This document shows, piece after piece, positions 5,460-44,598 of a DNA stretch of 45,263 nt. The stretch comes from Solirubrobacterales bacterium 70-9 (GTDB taxonomy: Bacteria > Pseudomonadota > Alphaproteobacteria > Acetobacterales > Acetobacteraceae). Position 1 is the first letter of the stretch; every line of letters begins with the position of its first letter. The DNA lies in the NCBI GenBank assembly GCA_903970625.1, contig CAJCJG010000131.1:1-45263 (forward strand), in the 5' to 3' direction. The translations under genes were made by a program, and so were the position numbers. Under the pieces are notes generated by a model. That model worked only from the letters and a program-made list of their open reading frames with translations, ran no database searches and was not told the origin of the DNA.

Positions 5460-6452
5460 ATGTCGCGAGTGATCGCCGCCCTGCTCCTGCTCCTGCCATT
5501 CATGTCCTCGCCGGCCGCCGCCGACGGTGCGTGCGCGGGGTTGCAACTCGACAAGGTGGTGAGTCCCCATGCGGCGCTGCACGACGTGCTGACGCTGCAT
5601 GTCGAGGGGCTGGCACACCTGCCCGCCGGCTGCGACCCGGCAAAGTTCACGCTGCGGCTGGCGGGCCAGGCGATGGCCGGGCTTGCGCCGACCTACGACA
5701 CCACGGCCGGGACAATCAGCTTCTTTCTCGACCGGAAGGACGGCGACAGCGCGCGATGGCTGCCCATCCTTGGATCTCCGACCGGTCTGACGAAAGTCGT
5801 GACAGTGGGCGTCGAGCCGGATGGTTCGGCCGACTTGCCGCATCCTGGCGACACGGTTCCGATGGTACCATTCGAAATCTTTGGCTATTGGGGCGCGTTG
5901 TTCGCGGGCCTGATGACCCTCGCGATGGCGGTGGGATTGGTTTGCGTGGCGCATTTCACCCCGGCGCTGCGCGACTCGCTGCCGGCAGGCGGCGACTTTC
6001 GGCGGCGGCCGTTCAGTCTCGGCCGGTGCCAGATGGCCTTCTGGTTTGTGCTGCTGACGACGGCCTTCCTGGCGCTTTGGCTGATTACCGGCAACTACAA
6101 CGGCATACTGACCTCGCAAAGCCTGGTCCTGCTGGGCATTTCCGGGGCAACGGGTCTGAGCGCGTTTAGCATCGACACGAGCAAGGCCAATACCCCCGTG
6201 CCGGCCGGCGCTCCCGATCCGCCAGCGCCGCCGCAGCATACGAACCTGCTGGACGATATCCTGACTGACAAGAACGGCATCGCGTTGCAACGGCTGCAAG
6301 TTTTCATCTGGACATGGATGCTCGGGCTGATCTCCGTGGTCTCGATCTACCGCAACCTGTCCCTGCCGGCGTTCGACGACACGTTGCTGACGATGAGCGG
6401 CATCAGTTCCGGCCTTTATGTCGGCTTCAAGTTTCCGGAGAAACAGTCGTAG
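5460..6452 (+). CDS. Membrane protein of unknown function with periplasmic N-domain
   Basis: A 330-residue protein. Residues 1-21 form a signal peptide (leucine-rich core, cleavage after AAA). Residues about 22-135 look like a beta-rich periplasmic domain with two cysteines (in GACAG and AGCDP) that might form a disulfide. At least four hydrophobic segments follow (about 140-165, 190-210, 218-235, 280-300), ending with SGISSGLYVGFKFPE. A hydrophilic proline-rich loop lies at about 240-265. I recognise the C-terminal pattern (two TM helices before GISSGxYxGFKxPE) as recurrent in uncharacterised membrane proteins but know no function. It lies between the peptidase-like and EcsC genes, probably in one operon. 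Confidence 0.7.
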   Translation: MSRVIAALLLLLPFMSSPAAADGACAGLQLDKVVSPHAALHDVLTLHVEGLAHLPAGCDPAKFTLRLAGQAMAGLAPTYDTTAGTISFFLDRKDGDSARWLPILGSPTGLTKVVTVGVEPDGSADLPHPGDTVPMVPFEIFGYWGALFAGLMTLAMAVGLVCVAHFTPALRDSLPAGGDFRRRPFSLGRCQMAFWFVLLTTAFLALWLITGNYNGILTSQSLVLLGISGATGLSAFSIDTSKANTPVPAGAPDPPAPPQHTNLLDDILTDKNGIALQRLQVFIWTWMLGLISVVSIYRNLSLPAFDDTLLTMSGISSGLYVGFKFPEKQS

Positions 6453-6482
6453 GCTGCCGCATGTCCGTGCGGAGGGTCGGGG

Positions 6483-7163
6483 ATGAGCGGTGCGGCGGCC
6501 AAGCAGGCGGTATTGTCCTGGCAGCTTAAATTGTTCGAGACGGTGTGGGCCGGCGTGGTCGGCGGCGACAGCAAATGGAACCCGGAAAAATCCTGCTACG
6601 ATCTGGCCACGGAGTTCCGCCAGAGCGGGCGCAGTGTCGCGCAATGCGTCGATAGTTTTATCGATTGGCAGGCGGCGAAGGCGGGGGCCGGCGGATTCGT
6701 GCTGGGGCTGCCGGGGATCGTCACGTCCGCCGTCTCGATCCCGGCGGACCTGACGATGACCACGTATATCCAGTTGCGGATGGTGGCCGTCATCGCGCTG
6801 CTGAAAGGGTGGGACGTAAGGGCGAACGGGATGAAGACCGTCGCCTATTTGTGCCTGCTGGGGTCCGGCGCGGGGCCGTTCGTCGCCCAACTGGGGCTGC
6901 CGGCGAACGCCGCTTCGCCGCCCCTGCTGTTCGGCGCCCTGCCCGCCCCGCTGCTCGCCAAGATCGACGGCATCATCGCCGGCAAGCTGGTGGTGGGCGC
7001 GGCCAAGACCGGCGTGCTGGGGATGGTGAAGTTCGTGCCGGTCGTGGGCGGGCTGGTCAACGGCGCGCTGGACGGGTTTGCGACCCGGTCTATCGGGAAA
7101 CAGGCGGACATCATGTTTCCGCCGCCGCCGCCGCGAGCGCCGCCAGCACCTGGGGCGGCTTGA
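6483..7163 (+). CDS. EcsC-family protein
   Basis: A 226-residue protein named for its likeness to EcsC, an accessory protein of the Bacillus Ecs transporter whose biochemical role is unknown. The diagnostic region is GLPGIVTSAVSIPADLTM followed by a helix of type YIQLRMVAVIALLKGWD (about residues 75-110), with several amphipathic or hydrophobic helices after it. The last 15 residues are a proline-rich tail. ATG 6483 has a good ribosome site (GGAGGGTCGGGG). It is the third gene of the 5013-7163 cassette. Its 3' end overlaps the end of the convergent GT9 gene by 53 bases. Confidence 0.78.
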   Translation: MSGAAAKQAVLSWQLKLFETVWAGVVGGDSKWNPEKSCYDLATEFRQSGRSVAQCVDSFIDWQAAKAGAGGFVLGLPGIVTSAVSIPADLTMTTYIQLRMVAVIALLKGWDVRANGMKTVAYLCLLGSGAGPFVAQLGLPANAASPPLLFGALPAPLLAKIDGIIAGKLVVGAAKTGVLGMVKFVPVVGGLVNGALDGFATRSIGKQADIMFPPPPPRAPPAPGAA

Positions 7164-12103: not shown

Positions 12104-13051
12104 TTAAACCCGCAGTGGACCAATAGCTGACGCTGGACCTGACGTTAACCCAAGCAGCGATATAAGGCTCGTCCTAAGCCCTTCGAGCAACCTAGCCCGG
12201 CCCGGGATCGAATTATCATAAAATATACAGCGATGAGGGCCAATATCAAATGGTAGTTTCGTACCACGTTGCGCTAGTAAAACTGTCGGTTTTCTTAACG
12301 CGTGCGCAACTCCGACCTCATAATATACATTCGGATTTGCCTCCGACACCTCAGCTATGACGACGGTTGACTCCGTTATGCGCGCCCATATATCGTTTAG
12401 TATTATGCCGGGACCTGCCGCCTCGTCGACGCGGAAGGGTTCAAACCCTATCTCAGCTACTAAAGGTCTAATTGCGTCGCGATACACTTCATTGTACGGC
12501 TCAGAGAACTGCATCGCAATGAAAGCATTTGGCCGCCTATCATCTATACTGAGCGGGCCGAATAACGCCTCCTCTGTGCCACGAAAAGCAAACAATCCTA
12601 GGCCTGTTCCAGTATTACTTGGGAGCCTATCATAGTCAATGACAGTCACGCCATCTATTGACAGGATCACTCTTTGGCCTTCCAAAGCCATCTTCAGATG
12701 GTATGTACGATTAGACACCAGATTAGATATGTTTCCTGCTGACGTGAGTCGAGTCAGAGTAAGGTTTCGACCTTCGGCAAGCGTATATGCACCCTCCCAT
12801 CCCCCGAGGCCCGCAGCATAGTAGGATGTCTGTCCGTTACCTCTAAATGTTATGAAGGCGCCAGAAGATGCGTGGGCAGTTGGGAGCTGGATATCAGTTT
12901 CGAGGACGCCATCGTCTAGGGGTGTCGATAGTAGAGCTAGGCCGTGGCTAGCGTCAGCCGAGTTTTCACTCGAGAATTTGACTACAGCATTAGAAGCAAC
13001 CGTCCACTTCCCATAGAGCGGGAGCATCTTTCCGAGATCAACATCTGCCAT
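12104..13051 (-). CDS. Concanavalin-like domain fused to deoxyribosyltransferase/TIR-like domain
   Basis: A 315-residue protein in an AT-richer island (27 G+C of 60 at 12661-12720). Residues about 8-170 look like a concanavalin A/LamG-type beta sandwich (GVLETDIQLP, GAFITFRGNG, YYAAGLGGWEG, TYHLKMALEG, VILSIDGVTVIDYD). Residues about 175-285 resemble nucleoside 2-deoxyribosyltransferase and TIR-like folds: AFIAMQFSEPYNEVY, GFEPFRVDE, ITESTVVIAEVSEANPNVYYEVGVAHAL with the conserved glutamate E245. Related domains act as NAD or nucleotide hydrolases in anti-phage effectors. The role here is inferred. No signal peptide or partner gene is seen. Confidence 0.7.
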   Translation of the reverse strand: MADVDLGKMLPLYGKWTVASNAVVKFSSENSADASHGLALLSTPLDDGVLETDIQLPTAHASSGAFITFRGNGQTSYYAAGLGGWEGAYTLAEGRNLTLTRLTSAGNISNLVSNRTYHLKMALEGQRVILSIDGVTVIDYDRLPSNTGTGLGLFAFRGTEEALFGPLSIDDRRPNAFIAMQFSEPYNEVYRDAIRPLVAEIGFEPFRVDEAAGPGIILNDIWARITESTVVIAEVSEANPNVYYEVGVAHALRKPTVLLAQRGTKLPFDIGPHRCIFYDNSIPGRARLLEGLRTSLISLLGLTSGPASAIGPLRV

Positions 13052-37250: not shown

Positions 37251-38309
37251 TCAGGCCGGCAGGATGGCGCCCTCCGGCTGGGCGGTGTCGAACACGGCGT
37301 CGGCAAAGGCTTCTTCCCACGAGCCGGTGGTAGAGGCTTTGCTGTATTCGGTCGCACGGTTTTCGAAGAAATTGGTGTGCTCGACAGCATTCAGCATGTC
37401 GTCGAGCCATGGCAGCGGGTTGCGTTCAACGTGGTATAGTTCGTTCAGGCCCAATTGTGTCAACCGGCGGTCGGCGATGAAGCGGATATACGTCTTCACA
37501 TCGGCCGCATTCAGCCCCTCGATTGCACCCAGTTCGAACGCGAGGTCGATAAAGGCGTCCTCGTGGTCGACGATGGTGGCGCAGGAGAGGTAGATTTCGC
37601 GCTTCAGATCCTCGGTCCAGATTTCCGGATTTTCCTGCACAAAGGTGCGGAACAGGCGGATGACGGATAAGCAATGCAACGTCTCGTCGCGCACGGACCA
37701 TGAAATAATTTGGCCCATGCCCTTCATTTTGCCAAATCGCGGAAAATTGAGCAGAATTGCGAATGACGCAAATAATTGCAGACCTTCGGTAAAGGCGCCG
37801 AAGGCGGCCAATGTCTTAGCGATCTCCGTCTTGTTATCAACTGTGAAGTTCTGCATGTAATCGTATTTCGCCTTCATCTCCTCATATTGGAGAAAGGCGC
37901 TGTATTCGACCTCCGGCAAGCCGATCGTGTCGAGCAGATGGCTGTAGGCAGCGACATGAATCGTCTCCGTGTTGGAGAACGCCGAAAGCATCATCAGCAC
38001 TTCGGTGGGTTTGAACACCTGGCTGTAATGCTTCATGTAACAATTATTGACCTCGACATCCGCCTGCGTGAAGAAGCGGAATATCTGCGTCAGCAAGTTG
38101 CGCTCGGACTTGGTGAGGTTCTTGTGCCAGTCCTTCACGTCGTCCGCCAGTGGCACCTCCTCCGGCAGCCAGTGGACGCGTTGCTGCGTCAGCCACGCCT
38201 CGTAGGCCCACGGGTAGCGGAACGGCTTATAGACCGGGTTCTCGGTCAACAAATCAAAATGTTTCTCGGGGCAGGGCGACTGGGCGTTCATGGGCAAACC
38301 TTTGGACAT
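37251..38309 (-). CDS. nrdB: Class Ia ribonucleotide reductase, beta subunit
   Basis: The 352-residue R2 subunit. It holds the diiron-tyrosyl radical cofactor and supplies the radical to NrdA for making dNDPs. Ligands visible with this start: D84, E115, H118 and tyrosine Y122 in NTETIHVAAYSHLLD, with later ligands in AFTEGLQLFASF and SWSVRDETLH. The tyrosine shows it is the radical type. ATG 38291 is an alternative start with a better AAGG site, six residues shorter. Two NrdR-like boxes lie upstream (38367-38407). It is separated from nrdA by about 2.5 kb holding three unrelated genes. Confidence 0.94.
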   Translation of the reverse strand: MSKGLPMNAQSPCPEKHFDLLTENPVYKPFRYPWAYEAWLTQQRVHWLPEEVPLADDVKDWHKNLTKSERNLLTQIFRFFTQADVEVNNCYMKHYSQVFKPTEVLMMLSAFSNTETIHVAAYSHLLDTIGLPEVEYSAFLQYEEMKAKYDYMQNFTVDNKTEIAKTLAAFGAFTEGLQLFASFAILLNFPRFGKMKGMGQIISWSVRDETLHCLSVIRLFRTFVQENPEIWTEDLKREIYLSCATIVDHEDAFIDLAFELGAIEGLNAADVKTYIRFIADRRLTQLGLNELYHVERNPLPWLDDMLNAVEHTNFFENRATEYSKASTTGSWEEAFADAVFDTAQPEGAILPA

Positions 38310-38407: not shown

Positions 38408-38468
38408 ATTTTTTGCGACTCCGGCAGGTTCGATCATGCCACCGAACGGGCGCCGGCGGGAGGGCGCG

Positions 38469-39092
38469 CTACACGTCCGTCCAGGCGATTAGCAGCCGGT
38501 CCGTCATCTCCGCCCACCCTGCGACGCGGGCGAGCAGGGTGGCGAAGGCCGGGTCGGCGGCCAGCTTGTCCTGCGCCGCACCATAGGCCGCCCAGTCGGC
38601 AAAGCGCGCGGACGACATCCAATGGCCGGCGCGCAGGCCCGCCGTGACGCGGGTGAATAAATAGTCGCTGGAGCCGGCGGCGAGAAAGGCGTCCCGCGCT
38701 TCCCCCGCCGTCGAGCGCGTGTCGCCGAGCGTGCCGCCTTTGTAGAAACTGGCCTGCGACACGGTGCCGCCGGAGTTGGCGGGCGGGGTGCCGCCGCTCA
38801 GGACGACATGATGCAGCGTGCGGGAGGCGAGGCGCATGAAGGGCGCGATGCCAGCCAGCAGGGACTGATACTCGGCATCGCGGTCCATCGCCTGCTTGGC
38901 GCGGCCAAAGGCGGCCCAGTCGGCGTAGCCAAGGGAGACGGTCCAGTTGCCGGGCGTGCCACCCGCGAAAACCTGGCCGATCCGGTAAGACTGCGCACCG
39001 TGGCGCAGGATTTTTTGCTTGATGGCCGGCGCCGCGTCCCCGATCTGGGCCGGCGTGCCGCCGCTGTATTGCGTGACGACAATGACGGTCAT
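38469..39092 (-). CDS. Protein with two tandem ferredoxin-like (NIPSNAP-like) domains
   Basis: A 207-residue soluble protein made of two similar halves. Half 1 ends GNWTVSLGYADWAAFGRAKQAMDRDAEYQSLLAGI and half 2 ends GHWMSSARFADWAAYGAAQDKLAADPAFATLLARV, an obvious duplication. The pattern (strand, helix, DWAAF helix, DPAF helix) is like NIPSNAP or other dimeric alpha+beta barrel proteins. Ligand and reaction are unknown. It lies between nrdB and a HTH antitoxin-like gene. ATG 39092 is the only good start. It is not part of the nrd operon by strand spacing, though it follows the same direction. Confidence 0.68.
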   Translation of the reverse strand: MTVIVVTQYSGGTPAQIGDAAPAIKQKILRHGAQSYRIGQVFAGGTPGNWTVSLGYADWAAFGRAKQAMDRDAEYQSLLAGIAPFMRLASRTLHHVVLSGGTPPANSGGTVSQASFYKGGTLGDTRSTAGEARDAFLAAGSSDYLFTRVTAGLRAGHWMSSARFADWAAYGAAQDKLAADPAFATLLARVAGWAEMTDRLLIAWTDV

Positions 39093-39238
39093 GGGTGTTG
39101 CCTTCCCTATTTTTACGTCGTTGGACGGGACATGTGCCCGCCGGGAGGGAGGTTACGTCCGTATGTCGCCGGATGGCAACGATTTGTCGATGTCGGATTG
39201 CGATGACTGCCCCGACGCGCGGAAATGGAGAGATGACG

Positions 39239-39625
39239 ATGGCTTTGACAGGCAGCTTTCGCGAAACCGTAGTGAACCGCGCACAAAACGATCCTGCGTT
39301 TCGGGCGGCGCTGGTCGAGGAAGCGGCGCAGAACATGCTGGATGGCGACATCGAGACCGCGCTCGGCCAACTGCGCGATGTGGTCAACGCAACGATGGGG
39401 TTCGACGCACTGGCGGAGGCGACCGGGTTGCCGAAGAAGAGCTTGATGCGGATGCTGGGGCCGCTTAGCAATCCGCGCGCGGCGAATTTGGGACGGATTC
39501 TACAAGCGGTCGGAAAGCAGACCGGCGTTCTTATTTTGGCGCGAACAGCGGCGATGAAAGAATTTCGGTCACTCAACCGAAATATTGCTAATTCTTTTAC
39601 GTTGCCCCAAAATCAAGAATTGTAA
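39239..39625 (+). CDS. Helix-turn-helix antitoxin-like protein, partner not seen
   Basis: A 128-residue protein. Its middle (about 47-95) matches the HTH of antitoxins that accompany RelE-type toxins: LRDVVNATMGFDALAEATGLPKKSLMRMLGPLSNPRAANLGRILQAV. The last 20 residues (FRSLNRNIANSFTLPQNQEL) are AT-rich in DNA and may be a changed tail. No RelE/HigB-like toxin lies beside it on either strand. ATG 39239 is preferred to 39233 because GGAGAG lies six bases ahead. Its 3' end overlaps the convergent gene by 13 bases. Confidence 0.7.
   Translation: MALTGSFRETVVNRAQNDPAFRAALVEEAAQNMLDGDIETALGQLRDVVNATMGFDALAEATGLPKKSLMRMLGPLSNPRAANLGRILQAVGKQTGVLILARTAAMKEFRSLNRNIANSFTLPQNQEL
39562..39583. terminator. 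Bidirectional terminator-like hairpin near the shared 3' ends
   Basis: ATTTCGGT and ACCGAAAT form an eight-base stem with a six-base loop inside the last codons of the HTH gene, 30 bases beyond the stop of the convergent minus-strand gene. AT-rich tails (TCTTT on the minus strand, CTTTT on the plus strand) lie nearby. It may end transcripts from both sides. Confidence 0.45.
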
Positions 39626-40734
39626 CCTGCCCAGTCGCCCCGTTCGTAGGAATGTGAACCGCCTCCGTAACCGGCAGCACGCCACATCGCGTCAATCGGA
39701 AGTCTGAGGTCATTGCCTGTTGGTTTTGTTAAGTGTTCAAAATACAACTCGGGCAAGGCTACAAAAGGTCTATCAAACCCTCCAGCGACGACATCATTGC
39801 GACGTTGAAGTTTCGCGCCTTGAACATCCATAATACCAAGCTGCACGGCTACGGGCGTGTCAATACCCAGTTTTTCATATGCTTCTGCAATTTGGTCCAC
39901 AGTAAACACAATTCGACCCTCGATCGAATTCCCATTTAGTAAAGGTTGTACCCCATCAGCTTTGCGTTCCTCCAACGTACTGACAATTTCCACCGTCCCC
40001 AGGTTTGTTACAAAACTGCACCACCATGATTCGGGATTGAGGCGGCTGCTGGGCTGCGGCCGCTGCCAAAATCTCCATCCATCGATGGCTGAACGGCCCA
40101 GTGCATCTGTGTAGCCGTGAGGCCTAAAGTAATAAGCGACGTCTTGCATCCGGCGATGGTCAATTTGCGCACTCTCACGCGCCGCAGTTTCTGGAAAAAC
40201 GTGAATTACCAACTTTGGGCCTGGAACGAGGACGGTGGGTAATTGGCCGCCCATTTGAATAAATGTGATTCGGTCTGCTGCGAAAGTCCGCGCTGCTTCC
40301 ATCAAGCGAGCGGTCTCTCTCGGTGGAGTAGCGTCACGCCGCCCGTGTACAATGCCGAAAAGACTTACCATGGATCGCGTGGCCTCAAGGCAAACCTCAG
40401 CATCTTGAAAAGTCGCAGTACGCTTATGTAGAAGGGATGACGCTAAATCAACTGATGCACGAGCGAATTTTCGTGCGGCCTCGTTGGTGTTGGAGCCTAG
40501 TTCTACTTGGATGTAAGCCTCCAGTAGTCGCTTCGCATCGGTCGGGCTCGCAGATATACCATCGAGGATCGGATGCCGTTCTGGGTTCCATAGCAGTTGT
40601 GCGAGTGATATCAGAATCTCACGGCAACGATGTCCTATAGCCTGAAAATCTTCTTCGCTGGCTGCTCCATCCAATTGCTGTCGGCATTTCAAAAGACCAC
40701 GATCAACCCGTGGCCAATCGGCGGGTTCACTCAT
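39613..40734 (-). CDS. Accessory protein with HEPN-like N-domain and Schlafen-type C-terminus
   Basis: A 373-residue protein in moderately AT-richer DNA (29 G+C of 60 at 40381-40440). The N-terminal half is helical: EDFQAIGHRCREILISLAQLLWNP, TDAKRLLEAYIQVELGSNTNEAARKFARASVDLASSLLHKRTAT in pieces, a pattern I know from uncharacterised accessory proteins and suggestive of a HEPN-like module. The second half (VPGPKLVIHVFPE and later) resembles the C-terminal region of AlbA_2/Schlafen-like proteins, without their ATP/DNA part. A defence or regulatory role is possible but inferred. The start at ATG 40734 follows weak signals. ATG 40749 is an alternative. Confidence 0.55.
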   Translation of the reverse strand: MSEPADWPRVDRGLLKCRQQLDGAASEEDFQAIGHRCREILISLAQLLWNPERHPILDGISASPTDAKRLLEAYIQVELGSNTNEAARKFARASVDLASSLLHKRTATFQDAEVCLEATRSMVSLFGIVHGRRDATPPRETARLMEAARTFAADRITFIQMGGQLPTVLVPGPKLVIHVFPETAARESAQIDHRRMQDVAYYFRPHGYTDALGRSAIDGWRFWQRPQPSSRLNPESWWCSFVTNLGTVEIVSTLEERKADGVQPLLNGNSIEGRIVFTVDQIAEAYEKLGIDTPVAVQLGIMDVQGAKLQRRNDVVAGGFDRPFVALPELYFEHLTKPTGNDLRLPIDAMWRAAGYGGGSHSYERGDWAGYNS

Positions 40735-40822
40735 GACCGGGTCTCTCACTGCAAAGTTAAGGCAAACCTTACGTTACTTTCGCGCCAATGCAATACTAAC
40801 CTCCGGGTCCTAGGCCGTCAGC

Positions 40823-42700
40823 CTACTGACACACCAAACACTCCTCATAATTCGCCGCATTCACCAGCGTCTTCGCCACCACCATCAGCGGCAGTCCCGC
40901 TTCCGGCAACACCACCGGTTCGCCGCGTTCGCGCTGCACGATCTCGTCGGGGCGCACAGCCTTTTCGGAAACGTTATCGGCGCGCGCCAGCGACATGCTG
41001 CGGCAATAGTACAGGCTTTTCACACCGCGCTTCCACGCCAGCAGATGGATCTGGTGGAGGTCGCGCTTATGGACGTTGGCGGGCAAAAACAGATTCACCG
41101 ACTGGCTTTGGCACACATACGGCGTGCGGTCGGCCGCGTGTTCCACCACCCATCGCTGATCCAGCTCGAACGCCGTCTTGAACACGGCTTTTTCCTGCTC
41201 GGTCAAAAAATCCAGATGCTGCACGCTGCCGGCGGTCACGGTGATCGACGACCAGATTTCTTCCCGATCCTGCCCCTTCTCCGCCAGCAGCTTCTGCAAA
41301 TAGCGGTTGCGCACGGCAAAACTGCCCGACAGCGTCTTTTGCAAAAACACATTCGCCGCAATCGGCTCGATGCCCGGCGACGCATTGTTAGTGATGATCG
41401 AGATCGAGGCGGTCGGCGCAATCGCGATCTTGTTCGAGAACCGCTCGTGAATACCGTATTCCGCCGCGTCCGGGCACGGCCCGCGCTCGTCGGCCAGCAG
41501 GCGCGATGCCGAATCCGCCTGCGCGCGCACATGCTTGAAAATGCGCTTGTTCCACACTTTCGCAATCACGCTCTCGAACGGCACGTTTTGCGATTGCAGG
41601 AACGAGTGAAAACCCATCACGCCGAGGCCGACGGAGCGCTCGCGCATCGCCGCGTATTTCGCCCGCTCCATGCCCGGCGGCGCGCGGTCGATGAAATCCT
41701 GCAACACGTTGTCGAGGAAGCGCATCACGTCCTCGATGAACAGCGGGTGCTTCTCCCACTCGAACCAGTTCTCCAGGTTCAGCGACGACAGGCAGCAGAC
41801 GGCGGTGCGCTGCTGGCCGTGATGGTCGATACCGGTCGGCAAGGTGATTTCCGAGCAGAGGTTGGAGGTTTTCACCTCCAGCCCCGCCAGCTTGTGGTGT
41901 TCCGGCCGCGCGTTGTTCACATGGTCTGAGAAGATCAGGTACGGCTCCCCGGTCTCGATCCGCGCCGTCAGGATGCGGACCCACAACGCGCGGGCGGAAA
42001 TTTTGCGGACATGGGCACCGTCCTTCGGCGAGGTCAGCGACCAGTCCTCGCCCGATTCGACGGCGCGCATGAACGCGTCCGGCACCAGAATGCCGTGATG
42101 CAGGTTCAGCGCTTTCCGGTTCGGGTCGCCGCCGGTCGGCCTGCGGATTTCGACGAATTCTTCGATTTCCGGGTGCGAGACGGGCAGATAAACGGCCGCC
42201 GATCCGCGCCGCAGGCTGCCCTGGCTGATCGCGAGCGTCAGCGAATCCATGACGCGGATGAACGGGATCACACCGGAGGTTTTGCCGTTCTGCCCGACCT
42301 TTTCGCCGATGGAGCGCAGATTGCCCCAATAGCTGCCGATGCCGCCGCCCTTGGACGCGAGCCACACATTCTCGTTCCAGAGGCCGACGATGCCCTCCAG
42401 ACTGTCGGACGCTTCGTTGAGGAAGCACGAAATTGGCAGGCCCCGGCTGGTGCCGCCGTTGGACAGGATCGGCGTGGCCGGCATGAACCACATCTTGCTG
42501 ATGTAGTCGTACAGCCGCTGCGCGTGCGCCGCGTCATCGCCGTAGTAGCTGGCGACACGGGCGAACAGATCCTGGTACGATTCGCCCGGCAGCAGATACC
42601 GGTCGTCGAGCGTGGCGCGGCCGAATTCGGTGATCAGGGCGTCGCGCGAGCGATCCACCCGAACCTGGTGGCGGCCTTGCATCTGGACGGCATCGAGCAC
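40823..42700 (-). CDS. nrdA: Class Ia ribonucleotide reductase, alpha subunit
   Basis: The 625-residue R1 subunit, which reduces ribonucleoside diphosphates with NrdB and thioredoxin/glutaredoxin. Active-site residues: C92 in LPISCFLNEAS, N280-C282-E284 in KTSNLCSEITLP, C302 in AVCCLSSLNL, the tyrosine pair in VKSLYYCRSM, and the C-terminal shuttle CxxC in EECLVCQ. No N-terminal ATP-cone is seen, and it is shorter than E. coli NrdA (761), so dATP overall inhibition through a cone may be absent. GTG 42700 with GGGGGA ahead is preferred to the ATG at 42826, which adds 42 unconserved residues. NrdR-like boxes lie upstream. Confidence 0.93.
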   Translation of the reverse strand: MLDAVQMQGRHQVRVDRSRDALITEFGRATLDDRYLLPGESYQDLFARVASYYGDDAAHAQRLYDYISKMWFMPATPILSNGGTSRGLPISCFLNEASDSLEGIVGLWNENVWLASKGGGIGSYWGNLRSIGEKVGQNGKTSGVIPFIRVMDSLTLAISQGSLRRGSAAVYLPVSHPEIEEFVEIRRPTGGDPNRKALNLHHGILVPDAFMRAVESGEDWSLTSPKDGAHVRKISARALWVRILTARIETGEPYLIFSDHVNNARPEHHKLAGLEVKTSNLCSEITLPTGIDHHGQQRTAVCCLSSLNLENWFEWEKHPLFIEDVMRFLDNVLQDFIDRAPPGMERAKYAAMRERSVGLGVMGFHSFLQSQNVPFESVIAKVWNKRIFKHVRAQADSASRLLADERGPCPDAAEYGIHERFSNKIAIAPTASISIITNNASPGIEPIAANVFLQKTLSGSFAVRNRYLQKLLAEKGQDREEIWSSITVTAGSVQHLDFLTEQEKAVFKTAFELDQRWVVEHAADRTPYVCQSQSVNLFLPANVHKRDLHQIHLLAWKRGVKSLYYCRSMSLARADNVSEKAVRPDEIVQRERGEPVVLPEAGLPLMVVAKTLVNAANYEECLVCQ

Positions 42701-42791
42701 GACAGAATCCCCCGGAGTCACGAACAAGTACTGGTCTCCATTCCGTCTCAAAGGCTTGGCGGCGTCAATTGAAATTCCACTTGAGGTTCCA

Positions 42792-42833
42792 CCATATATC
42801 GCGGTGTGTCCCTGCCGCACCCACAATATGAGC
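42792..42833 (-). promoter_or_regulatory. Candidate NrdR box pair upstream of nrdA
   Basis: Box-like CCATATATCG (42792-42801, eight of ten core matches) and a partial one, CAATATGAGC (42824-42833, the left half CAATAT intact), have centres 32 bases apart. The spacing equals that at nrdB within one base, and the pair lies about 92-133 bases upstream of the preferred nrdA start. The second box is weak. Confidence 0.45.
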
Positions 42834-42991
42834 CTTCCGTGCCGGCGATACGACTAGAACAATATGGGAACGCTGCGGAAGAATCGAGTCGCGAAGGGCT
42901 CGTGCCGATTCGTGGGACTGTGGCGCGTAACCGACCTATCTTTAGAGTGTCCACGGTGGTGGAAAGCGCACAAGGATGCTATATCACAGCG

Positions 42992-44122
42992 ATGATAGAT
43001 CGATTCTACGTCCACAATTTTCGGTGCCTGGACAATTTCGACTTAGGCCTCGGAAAACACCCGTCCGTCCTTTTGCTGGGACGGAATGGCTCGGGCAAAA
43101 CGACGGTCGGGCTTGCACTTAAAGTTTTGCAAAGCATCGCACGGGGAAGCAACCGTGTAGGTGACTTGGTGAAACCCAAAGATGTTGCACACGGACGGAC
43201 GGGCGTTCCGACACGCTTCGAAATCGATGTTACTCTAGTGGGCCGCAAATACTCATATACGGTGGCATTCGAGTTTCCCACAGGATTTCGTGAGTTGCGT
43301 GTCCACGAGGAAAAACTGACGGTTGATGGAGAGGCGATTTTTGAACGCGAACTTGCTCAAGTAAGGCTTGCTCAAACAAGAGTTGCTTTAGATGCCGCTT
43401 TTCGAATCGATTGGCACTTGGTTGCTTTACCGATTGTCCAGGAGCAAAGTGAAGAAGATCCGCTATATATTTTTAAAAATTGGCTGGCCAACATTTTAAT
43501 ACTCAGGCCAGTCCCAAGTCTAGCTCGGGGGGATTCCGACCAGAACAATGCCCAAACTCGATCGCCCGATATGCAGGTAACGGATGTCGGTGCTTGGTTT
43601 TCTAGTATGGTTGCTGCTGCGCCTTTGACCTATTCGAAGATTAGCGAATATCTCGCGCACGTAATGCGGAATTTTAGTCAAATAAGAAACCCAATCGTTG
43701 GCAAGGATGCCAGAAGTTTGGTGTTTGATTTTCAGAAGGGGGACCAACGCATGACGCTACCCCTCGAAGAACTTTCTGACGGAGAGAGGTGTTTTGTTAT
43801 ATTTTCACTCACGATCGCAGCGAACGCAGTGCATGGCCCGATACTTTGCTTTTGGGACGAGCCAGACAATTTTCTTGCGCCGGACGAGGTCGGTCATTCG
43901 ATTATGGCCCTTCGCAGGGCTTTCCAAAATAGTGGTCAGCTGATAGTAACATCCCATAATCCCGAGGCCATACGTCGATTTTCGGAAGCCAATACGCTAT
44001 ATTTATTTAGAAAGAGTCATTTGGAGCCAACCCTTGTCATATCTGTGGAAGAAATGCGCGCGAGTGGACAATATGATGGAGGCTTTATCGACGCTCTTGT
44101 TCGCGGCGATATCGAACCATGA
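42992..44122 (+). CDS. AAA/ABC-type ATPase of a two-gene accessory module
   Basis: A 376-residue OLD/RecF-like ATPase in AT-rich DNA (25 G+C of 60 at 43681-43740). Walker A GRNGSGKTT is at 30-38, an ABC-like signature is in EELSDGERCF, Walker B is in ILCFWDEPDNFL, and the switch histidine is in TSHNPEAI. The N-terminus MIDRFYVHNFRCLDNF is the usual start of such sensor ATPases. It overlaps the next gene by four bases (ATGA), so both are made together. Related ATPases in anti-phage systems (PARIS, Gabija-like, retron-associated) hold back a nuclease or sense phage proteins. A defence role here is inferred. ATG 42992 is chosen because upstream codons to 42806 are unconserved. Confidence 0.85.
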   Translation: MIDRFYVHNFRCLDNFDLGLGKHPSVLLLGRNGSGKTTVGLALKVLQSIARGSNRVGDLVKPKDVAHGRTGVPTRFEIDVTLVGRKYSYTVAFEFPTGFRELRVHEEKLTVDGEAIFERELAQVRLAQTRVALDAAFRIDWHLVALPIVQEQSEEDPLYIFKNWLANILILRPVPSLARGDSDQNNAQTRSPDMQVTDVGAWFSSMVAAAPLTYSKISEYLAHVMRNFSQIRNPIVGKDARSLVFDFQKGDQRMTLPLEELSDGERCFVIFSLTIAANAVHGPILCFWDEPDNFLAPDEVGHSIMALRRAFQNSGQLIVTSHNPEAIRRFSEANTLYLFRKSHLEPTLVISVEEMRASGQYDGGFIDALVRGDIEP

Positions 44123-44598
44123 GCTGCAATAAATACGAACCACATGTCTTTATTCTTCCGGAGGACGATGCCAACCGCCAGTTGGCCAATGGATTCGTCC
44201 TGGAGGTCCGATACAGCAGGCGAATACAGGTTTTACAGGAAGCAGGGGGGTGGCTGCATGTTTGCGAGACATTTCTCTCCGAACATGTGAAGGAAATGCA
44301 GAAATACATACATAGATATGTGGTGTTATTGCTAGATTTCGATAATCAAAATGATAGGCCCGATAAGGTCAAGGCCAAGATCCCACTAAATCTCGCGGAT
44401 AGAGTTTTTTTGCTTGGTGTTCGGACGGAGCCGGAAGCGCTGAGGCGGGCGGGTTTGGGCTCGTTCGAAGATATTGGACGTTTGCTCGCAATGGAATGTC
44501 GCAACGGGGTTAGGAACGTTTGGGAACATGACCTCCTGCGGCAAAATGCCGGCGAACTGGCTCGATTAGAACAGACTGTTCGCGTCGTTCTCTTTTGA
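44119..44598 (+). CDS. TOPRIM-like small partner of the ATPase
   Basis: A 159-residue protein. The acidic positions fit a TOPRIM-type centre: E15 in LPEDDANRQLANG and D73/D75 in VVLLLDFDNQNDR. TOPRIM nucleases use one Glu and a DxD pair with Mg2+. Further conserved-looking blocks are GVRTEPEALRRAG, SFEDIG and VWEHDLLRQNAGELARL. It is much smaller than OLD nucleases or AriB, and I know no experimental function for this size. Translational coupling (ATGA) to the ATPase suggests a complex. The TOPRIM assignment is by motif only, so a different metal-binding fold is possible. Confidence 0.65.
   Translation: MSCNKYEPHVFILPEDDANRQLANGFVLEVRYSRRIQVLQEAGGWLHVCETFLSEHVKEMQKYIHRYVVLLLDFDNQNDRPDKVKAKIPLNLADRVFLLGVRTEPEALRRAGLGSFEDIGRLLAMECRNGVRNVWEHDLLRQNAGELARLEQTVRVVLF

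Follow-up and report, generated by a model that had tools for sequence, protein, structure and literature searches.

The adjoining genes at positions 42992-44598 of the window (the whole 45,263-nucleotide stretch of DNA that was analysed) encode an ABC-type ATPase and a protein of 159 residues, and the best-supported description of this pair is an OLD nuclease in two pieces. The predicted structure of the ATPase matches residues 1-369 of the OLD enzyme TsOLD (6p74; Z 16.6, rmsd 4.5, 249 aligned residues), while the best match of the small protein among solved structures (VIA) is the TOPRIM domain of the same enzyme (6p74 residues 368-525; Z 7.4, rmsd 3.9, 127 aligned). As the two proteins match consecutive parts of TsOLD, with 376 plus 159 residues versus 528, the pair looks like an OLD nuclease divided between two genes. 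Two-gene combinations of an ATPase with a TOPRIM protein are already known from PARIS, AbiL, and AAA/OLD_TOPRIM pairs, so that the pair is not a new kind of system. Because the small protein belongs to none of the families searched, the pair is, judged from its sequence, probably a new and compact form of this known type of phage-defence module. The initial annotation, which had suggested a compact and perhaps undescribed relative with an unusually small effector, is supported in part: the effector is unusually small, has a predicted TOPRIM-type fold, and is paired with an OLD-like ATPase, while the anti-phage role is putative.

Gene organisation and motifs of the ATPase

The pair and its neighbours occupy the following positions.

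40823-42826, reverse strand: ribonucleotide reductase class I large subunit gene (nrdA), neighbour of the pair
37251-38309: nrdB, farther from the pair than nrdA
42992-44122, forward strand: ABC/OLD-like ATPase gene, 376 residues, identified by Pfam, PADLOC, and structure matches
44119-44598, forward strand: gene for a predicted TOPRIM-fold nuclease (P0002), 159 residues, based on the AlphaFold2 model and the VIA match
44119-44122, forward strand: ATGA stop/start overlap, 4 bp common to the ATPase gene and the small gene

At its longest, the ATPase reading frame begins at 42806, but homologues back a start at 42992. The contig ends 665 bp past the pair. By tblastn, NrdA points to relatives resembling Acetobacteraceae, and no 16S gene was found in the window's genome. 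Both the position beside nrdA and the AT-richness of the DNA had been pointed out before, the latter being correct in a relative sense, since the GC content is 48.5% for the ATPase gene and 49.4% for the small-protein gene versus 65.1% for the whole window. The four-base overlap of the two genes, also part of the initial annotation, likely leads to translational coupling of the ATPase and the small protein. This overlap is kept in 11 of the 12 pairs measured (the window and ten other loci); in the copy found in a second genome of the window's family (G540), a gap of about 70 bases separates the genes and the -4 overlap is absent.

The motifs on which the reading as an OLD/RecF-like ATPase was originally based have all been located and are kept in the homologues.

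43079-43105, forward strand: Walker A GRNGSGKTT, ATPase residues 30-38
43775-43792, forward strand: ABC signature SDGERC, within LSDGERC (ATPase residues 261-267)
43841-43870, forward strand: Walker B and D-loop (ILCFWDEPDN), with Walker B ending in DE (289-290) and the D-loop PDN
43955-43957, forward strand: switch histidine H322 in an invariant T-S-H motif

In 11 homologues, no variation is found in the Walker A residues G30, N32, G33, G35, K36, and T38 or in D289, E290, P291, D292, and N293 of the Walker B and D-loop region. The signature residues S262, G264, and E265 are likewise invariant, and D263 is present in 10 of 11, being replaced by alanine in one. Because P-loop, signature, Walker B, and switch histidine are all retained, the ATPase should hydrolyze ATP. 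Matches to the Pfam models AAA_21 (6.9e-16) and SMC_N (8.7e-11) have been obtained. For the ATPase, AlphaFold2 gave a model of moderate quality (pLDDT 67), which was used for domain-level matching only; in addition to TsOLD, it matches structures of SMC, Rad50, and PtuA.

Distribution and genomic neighbourhood of the pair

Of the 397 genomes from the window's family that were searched with a profile, 2 contain the pair, and among 299 genomes across the window's phylum it is present in the window's own genome only. A single scan covering about 85,000 species genomes yielded eleven further loci in Acidobacteriota, Planctomycetota, Cyanobacteria, and Desulfobacterota, and as it required exact peptide patterns, the true abundance may be higher; two of these loci are partial, one being cut by the locus end (L012) and the other containing fragments of both genes (L013). 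The pair is also encoded on a plasmid of Kovacikia minuta, as found by tblastn, while no homologue of it was found in viral contigs and phage records. Homologues from other phyla have the same gene order and share 40-58% identity in the ATPase and 43-56% in the small protein. Pairwise distances of the two proteins are strongly correlated (Mantel r 0.92, reached in 0 of 5000 permutations). The ATPase gene and the small gene are a conserved, co-diverging unit.

At the nrdA site of a relative from the same genus (G299), the pair is absent. Homology between the two genomes spans nrdA and the sequence upstream of it and ends at window position 42892, which is 100 bp before the start of the ATPase gene. 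Beyond this point the sequences differ, and the sequence following nrdA in the relative is absent from the window's genome except for a 39-bp match. In the ATPase tree, the window copy clusters with the G540 copy and the copies from Acidobacteriota. The pair is rare and patchy in its distribution and has probably spread horizontally. Some copies look broken: an in-frame stop interrupts one ATPase gene (L004), another has frameshifts (L005), and the small gene of G540 contains a stop; assembly error would be an alternative explanation.

Defence genes adjoin the pair in only two homologous loci. In L008, a PvuII-type restriction-modification system consisting of methyltransferase, control protein, and restriction enzyme lies near the pair together with a caspase-domain gene. 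In L009, a fragment of a type II methyltransferase gene and the genes for an MjaI-like restriction enzyme, GmrSD/NsnA, and a HEPN protein are located upstream of the pair. At the other loci, where open frames were inspected, the pair lies among housekeeping genes or mobile DNA. The contexts of L008 and L009 are no more than suggestive of a role in defence. A further feature of L009 is that the 5' part of a DNA methyltransferase gene is present twice (2079-2543 and 6256-6534). The copies flank the genes for the MjaI-like restriction enzyme, GmrSD/NsnA, and HEPN just upstream of the pair, as if they had arisen by duplication or insertion.

The fact that most loci do not adjoin defence genes, and that the pair in the window adjoins nrdA, would also agree with a split OLD-like ATPase-nuclease whose main job is something other than phage defence, such as the exclusion of plasmids or other elements, DNA repair, or housekeeping. 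That OLD enzymes can be non-defensive is illustrated by the archaeal OLD protein Cran1, which has a role in the cell cycle (PMC12796447). An essential or core role, however, is difficult to reconcile with the occurrence in 2 of 397 family genomes, the absence from the corresponding site of the relative, and the spread across phyla, and two loci do lie in or beside defence genes. A main function outside of phage defence is therefore regarded as unlikely.

Relation to known ATPase-TOPRIM systems

TsOLD, the Class 1 OLD enzyme of Thermus scotoductus, resembles the pair in that an N-terminal ABC ATPase is followed by a TOPRIM domain without an inserted helical domain, and the acids that bind metal A in TsOLD have predicted equivalents in the small protein. 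In contrast to the single polypeptide of TsOLD, the pair consists of separate genes in every locus containing both, and its small protein has no significant sequence similarity to the TOPRIM half of TsOLD. Of the features of the OLD family, Walker A, signature, Walker B, and switch histidine are present in the ATPase, and a TOPRIM fold with the E/DxD acids of metal A is found in the AlphaFold2 prediction of the small protein, with a structure-match Z of only 7.4.

Several known systems share the two-gene architecture. In PARIS, which has been designated 'Class 4 OLD' (PMC10568477, PMC12796447), the ATPase AriA and the TOPRIM protein AriB are encoded by adjoining separate genes as in the pair, but the PADLOC model for AriB does not match the small proteins, and the 159-residue protein represents a separate sequence family. 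AbiL (AbiLi/AbiLii) and RloA/RloB likewise combine an AAA ATPase with a small OLD_TOPRIM-related protein. Among the PADLOC models, AbiLi matches the ATPase best (4.5e-23), although many ATPase families of the superfamily also score, whereas AbiLii is RloB-like and the small protein has no match to RloB. The PADLOC candidate system HEC-01 and the DUF4276-like pairs are also composed of two genes, for an ATPase and for a protein of about 200 residues with an E...DxD...E pattern. However, these families have an ExExW motif that is lacking in the small protein, and their ATPases belong to a different clade. Gabija GajA and Septu PtuA are OLD/RecF-like ATPases from the same superfamily as the ATPase of the pair. 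Gabija was rejected, as no UvrD-like helicase (GajB) is encoded between nrdA and the pair or in the 665 bp up to the contig end; at the other loci, absence of the helicase was judged from open frames only. Septu was rejected because the partner is a TOPRIM-like protein without a match to an HNH family, so that PtuB is missing.

No match to the small protein was found among Pfam, PADLOC, and NCBIfam models. When its relatives were compared with family models, the only signal was to HEC-01B, in four relatives (best E 0.0026), and this similarity is not significant for the window protein. The Pfam model OLD-like_TOPRIM (PF20469) matches neither the small protein and its relatives nor any other protein of the window's genome, PF13707/AbiLii matches neither the small protein nor its relatives, and searches of the window's genome for RloB, HEC-01B, and OLD_TOPRIM found nothing. 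In the ATPase tree, the ATPases of the pair form a separate clade (support 1.0), which stands outside of the RloAB, HEC-01, DUF4276-like, and OLD ATPases; comparison sequences were taken from genomes of the same phylum, with AbiLi and AriA left out. Because of the separate ATPase clade and the lack of matches of the small protein to OLD_TOPRIM, RloB, and HEC-01B models, the pair was assigned to no named system.

A divergent member of AbiL, HEC-01, or PARIS that is scored poorly by current models would account for the PADLOC matches of the ATPase, which comprise MAD3 (2.6e-19), HEC-01A (3.1e-19), AriA (2e-16), GajA, and PtuA besides AbiLi, as well as for the weak HEC-01B signal in four small-protein relatives. 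These ATPase matches, however, all belong to one very broad superfamily, and such membership is further opposed by the unmatched small protein, the negative searches of the window's genome, and the separate clade in the tree from which AbiLi and AriA were omitted. It thus appears quite improbable that the pair belongs to one of these systems.

Predicted fold of the small protein and putative mode of action

An AlphaFold2 model of the small protein based on an alignment of ten sequences reached a pLDDT of 88.9 and a pTM of 0.85. It consists of β1 (10-14), α1, β2 (36-38), α2, β3 (67-73), α3, β4 (96-101), and α4, which is the order of strands and helices of a TOPRIM fold. E15 follows immediately after β1, D73 is at the end of β3, and D75 lies just after it. 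The TOPRIM-like placement that had been proposed for these acids is thus reproduced in the model, and all three are invariant. Residues without variation in the 11 sequences are E15, D16, G43, G44, W45, D73, F74, D75, R80, P105, W135, H137, and N143, and E106 is present in 10 of 11. The following residues are the candidates for the metal site.

44161-44163, forward strand: E15, predicted ligand of metal A (TsOLD E377), aligned with the invariant E of OLD TOPRIMs
44335-44343, forward strand: D73-F74-D75, predicted ligands of metal A (TsOLD D431/D433), aligned with the DxD of OLD TOPRIMs
44428-44436, forward strand: E/D/N104-P105-E106, candidate motif for metal B (TsOLD S478/E480)

In TsOLD, metal A is bound by E377, D431, and D433, and metal B by D381, S478, and E480 (PMC7049728). 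As the VIA alignment begins with model residue 6 at chain residue 368, E15 would fall on TsOLD E377 if the alignment is ungapped. With respect to the metal-B and basic residues of TsOLD (D381, S478, E480, R487), residue 19 of the small protein is D or N, residue 104 is E, D, or N, and basic residues are present at 109-110 in most homologues, all of these being equivalent by position only. The presumed correspondence of 104-P105-E106 to S478/E480 is drawn from the position of the motif after β4.

The VIA list includes the C-terminal regions of Burkholderia and Xanthomonas OLD proteins, topoisomerase II, and gyrase, and many TOPRIM, primase, and RloB entries appear in the list from the viral structure library, with weak E-values throughout. 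Lumazine synthases and other α/β folds tie with the TsOLD TOPRIM match (VIA, Z <8), so that the fold match does not settle the matter by itself. Foldseek with the model gave no match at E<=0.001 in the PDB or the viral library, and searching PDB sequences with a profile of the small protein gave no meaningful match. In profile-profile comparisons with TOPRIMs of the OLD, RloB, and HEC-01B/DUF4276-like types, scores were no higher than those of shuffled controls; for the OLD TOPRIM, hhalign reached 15.2 versus a shuffled maximum of 17.3, which is not significant. With OLD and HEC-01B, the top alignments run collinearly and have the acids in register, also at non-significant scores, and in the best hhalign alignment E15, residue 19, D73, and D75 fall on the invariant E, E, D, and D of OLD. 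A TOPRIM-type fold with the named acids at metal-binding positions is predicted with good confidence. An α/β protein other than a TOPRIM nuclease, with an acidic metal or ligand site and, for instance, a role in regulating its partner ATPase, would fit the nearly equal scores of non-TOPRIM folds and the non-significant profiles, but is very unlikely in view of the invariant E, D, and D at the ends of β1 and β3 as in TOPRIM, the OLD-like partner, and the concentration of TOPRIM entries in the VIA and viral structure lists.

The TOPRIM metal site does not account for the invariant GGW (residues 43-45) following β2 or for the invariant C-terminal WxH...N (135-143). These motifs may bind the substrate or the ATPase.

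With regard to function, the pair is rather likely to be a compact abortive-infection module of the split OLD type, with a two-metal nuclease under the control of the ATPase. In AbiL, which also acts by abortive infection, the TOPRIM partner is the toxic effector, and two AAA/TOPRIM_OLD gene pairs have been tested as toxin-antitoxin systems, so that there is precedent for AAA and OLD_TOPRIM bicistrons as toxin-neutralizer pairs (PMC10440598). In PARIS, AriB is a two-metal tRNase (PMC12409363). By analogy, the ATPase would restrain the small nuclease and release or activate it upon infection. The OLD/RecF/SMC-like ATPase and the minimal TOPRIM nuclease would be co-translated via the ATGA overlap, and a dimer of the ATPase would bind the small protein and hold its two-metal site inactive. 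The ATPase could then be altered by a phage-borne trigger or by a shift in nucleotide or nucleic-acid state, which would free or activate the nuclease. Cleavage of tRNA or DNA by the E15/D73/D75 metal site would halt growth and result in abortive infection. For this pair we infer complex formation, nuclease activity, the class of substrate, the trigger, and the anti-phage role.

If this mechanism is true, the pair is among the smallest two-component OLD-type systems and would be a compact model for studying the control of a free TOPRIM nuclease by an ABC ATPase and the substrate cut by that nuclease. Because the two proteins align to successive halves of a single OLD enzyme of solved structure, the split can be tested directly. 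More tentatively, the pair could have arisen by an independent split of OLD apart from PARIS, AbiL, and HEC-01 and represent a new two-gene defence class of ABC ATPase and minimal TOPRIM, with an effector close to the smallest possible TOPRIM whose own motifs may set the substrate. Since none of the family libraries searched recognizes the small proteins, model-based tools for finding defence systems would miss the pair.

Elsewhere in the window, two adjoining genes for proteins of about 380 residues lie between nrdB and nrdA (38434-40749, reverse strand), neither with a Pfam or PADLOC match. The segment is GC-poor, with 52% GC in the second gene, and the gap between nrdB and nrdA is about 2.7 kb in the window versus 0.3-0.6 kb in three relatives. 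It is possibly a second acquired island adjoining nrdA. A GC-poor patch at 12104-13051 (reverse strand) encodes a 315-residue protein, the C-terminal region of which resembles TIR effectors (PADLOC 1.5e-11) and weakly resembles nucleoside deoxyribosyltransferases (2.9e-4, below the cut-off); this gene is a possible second defence gene of the window.
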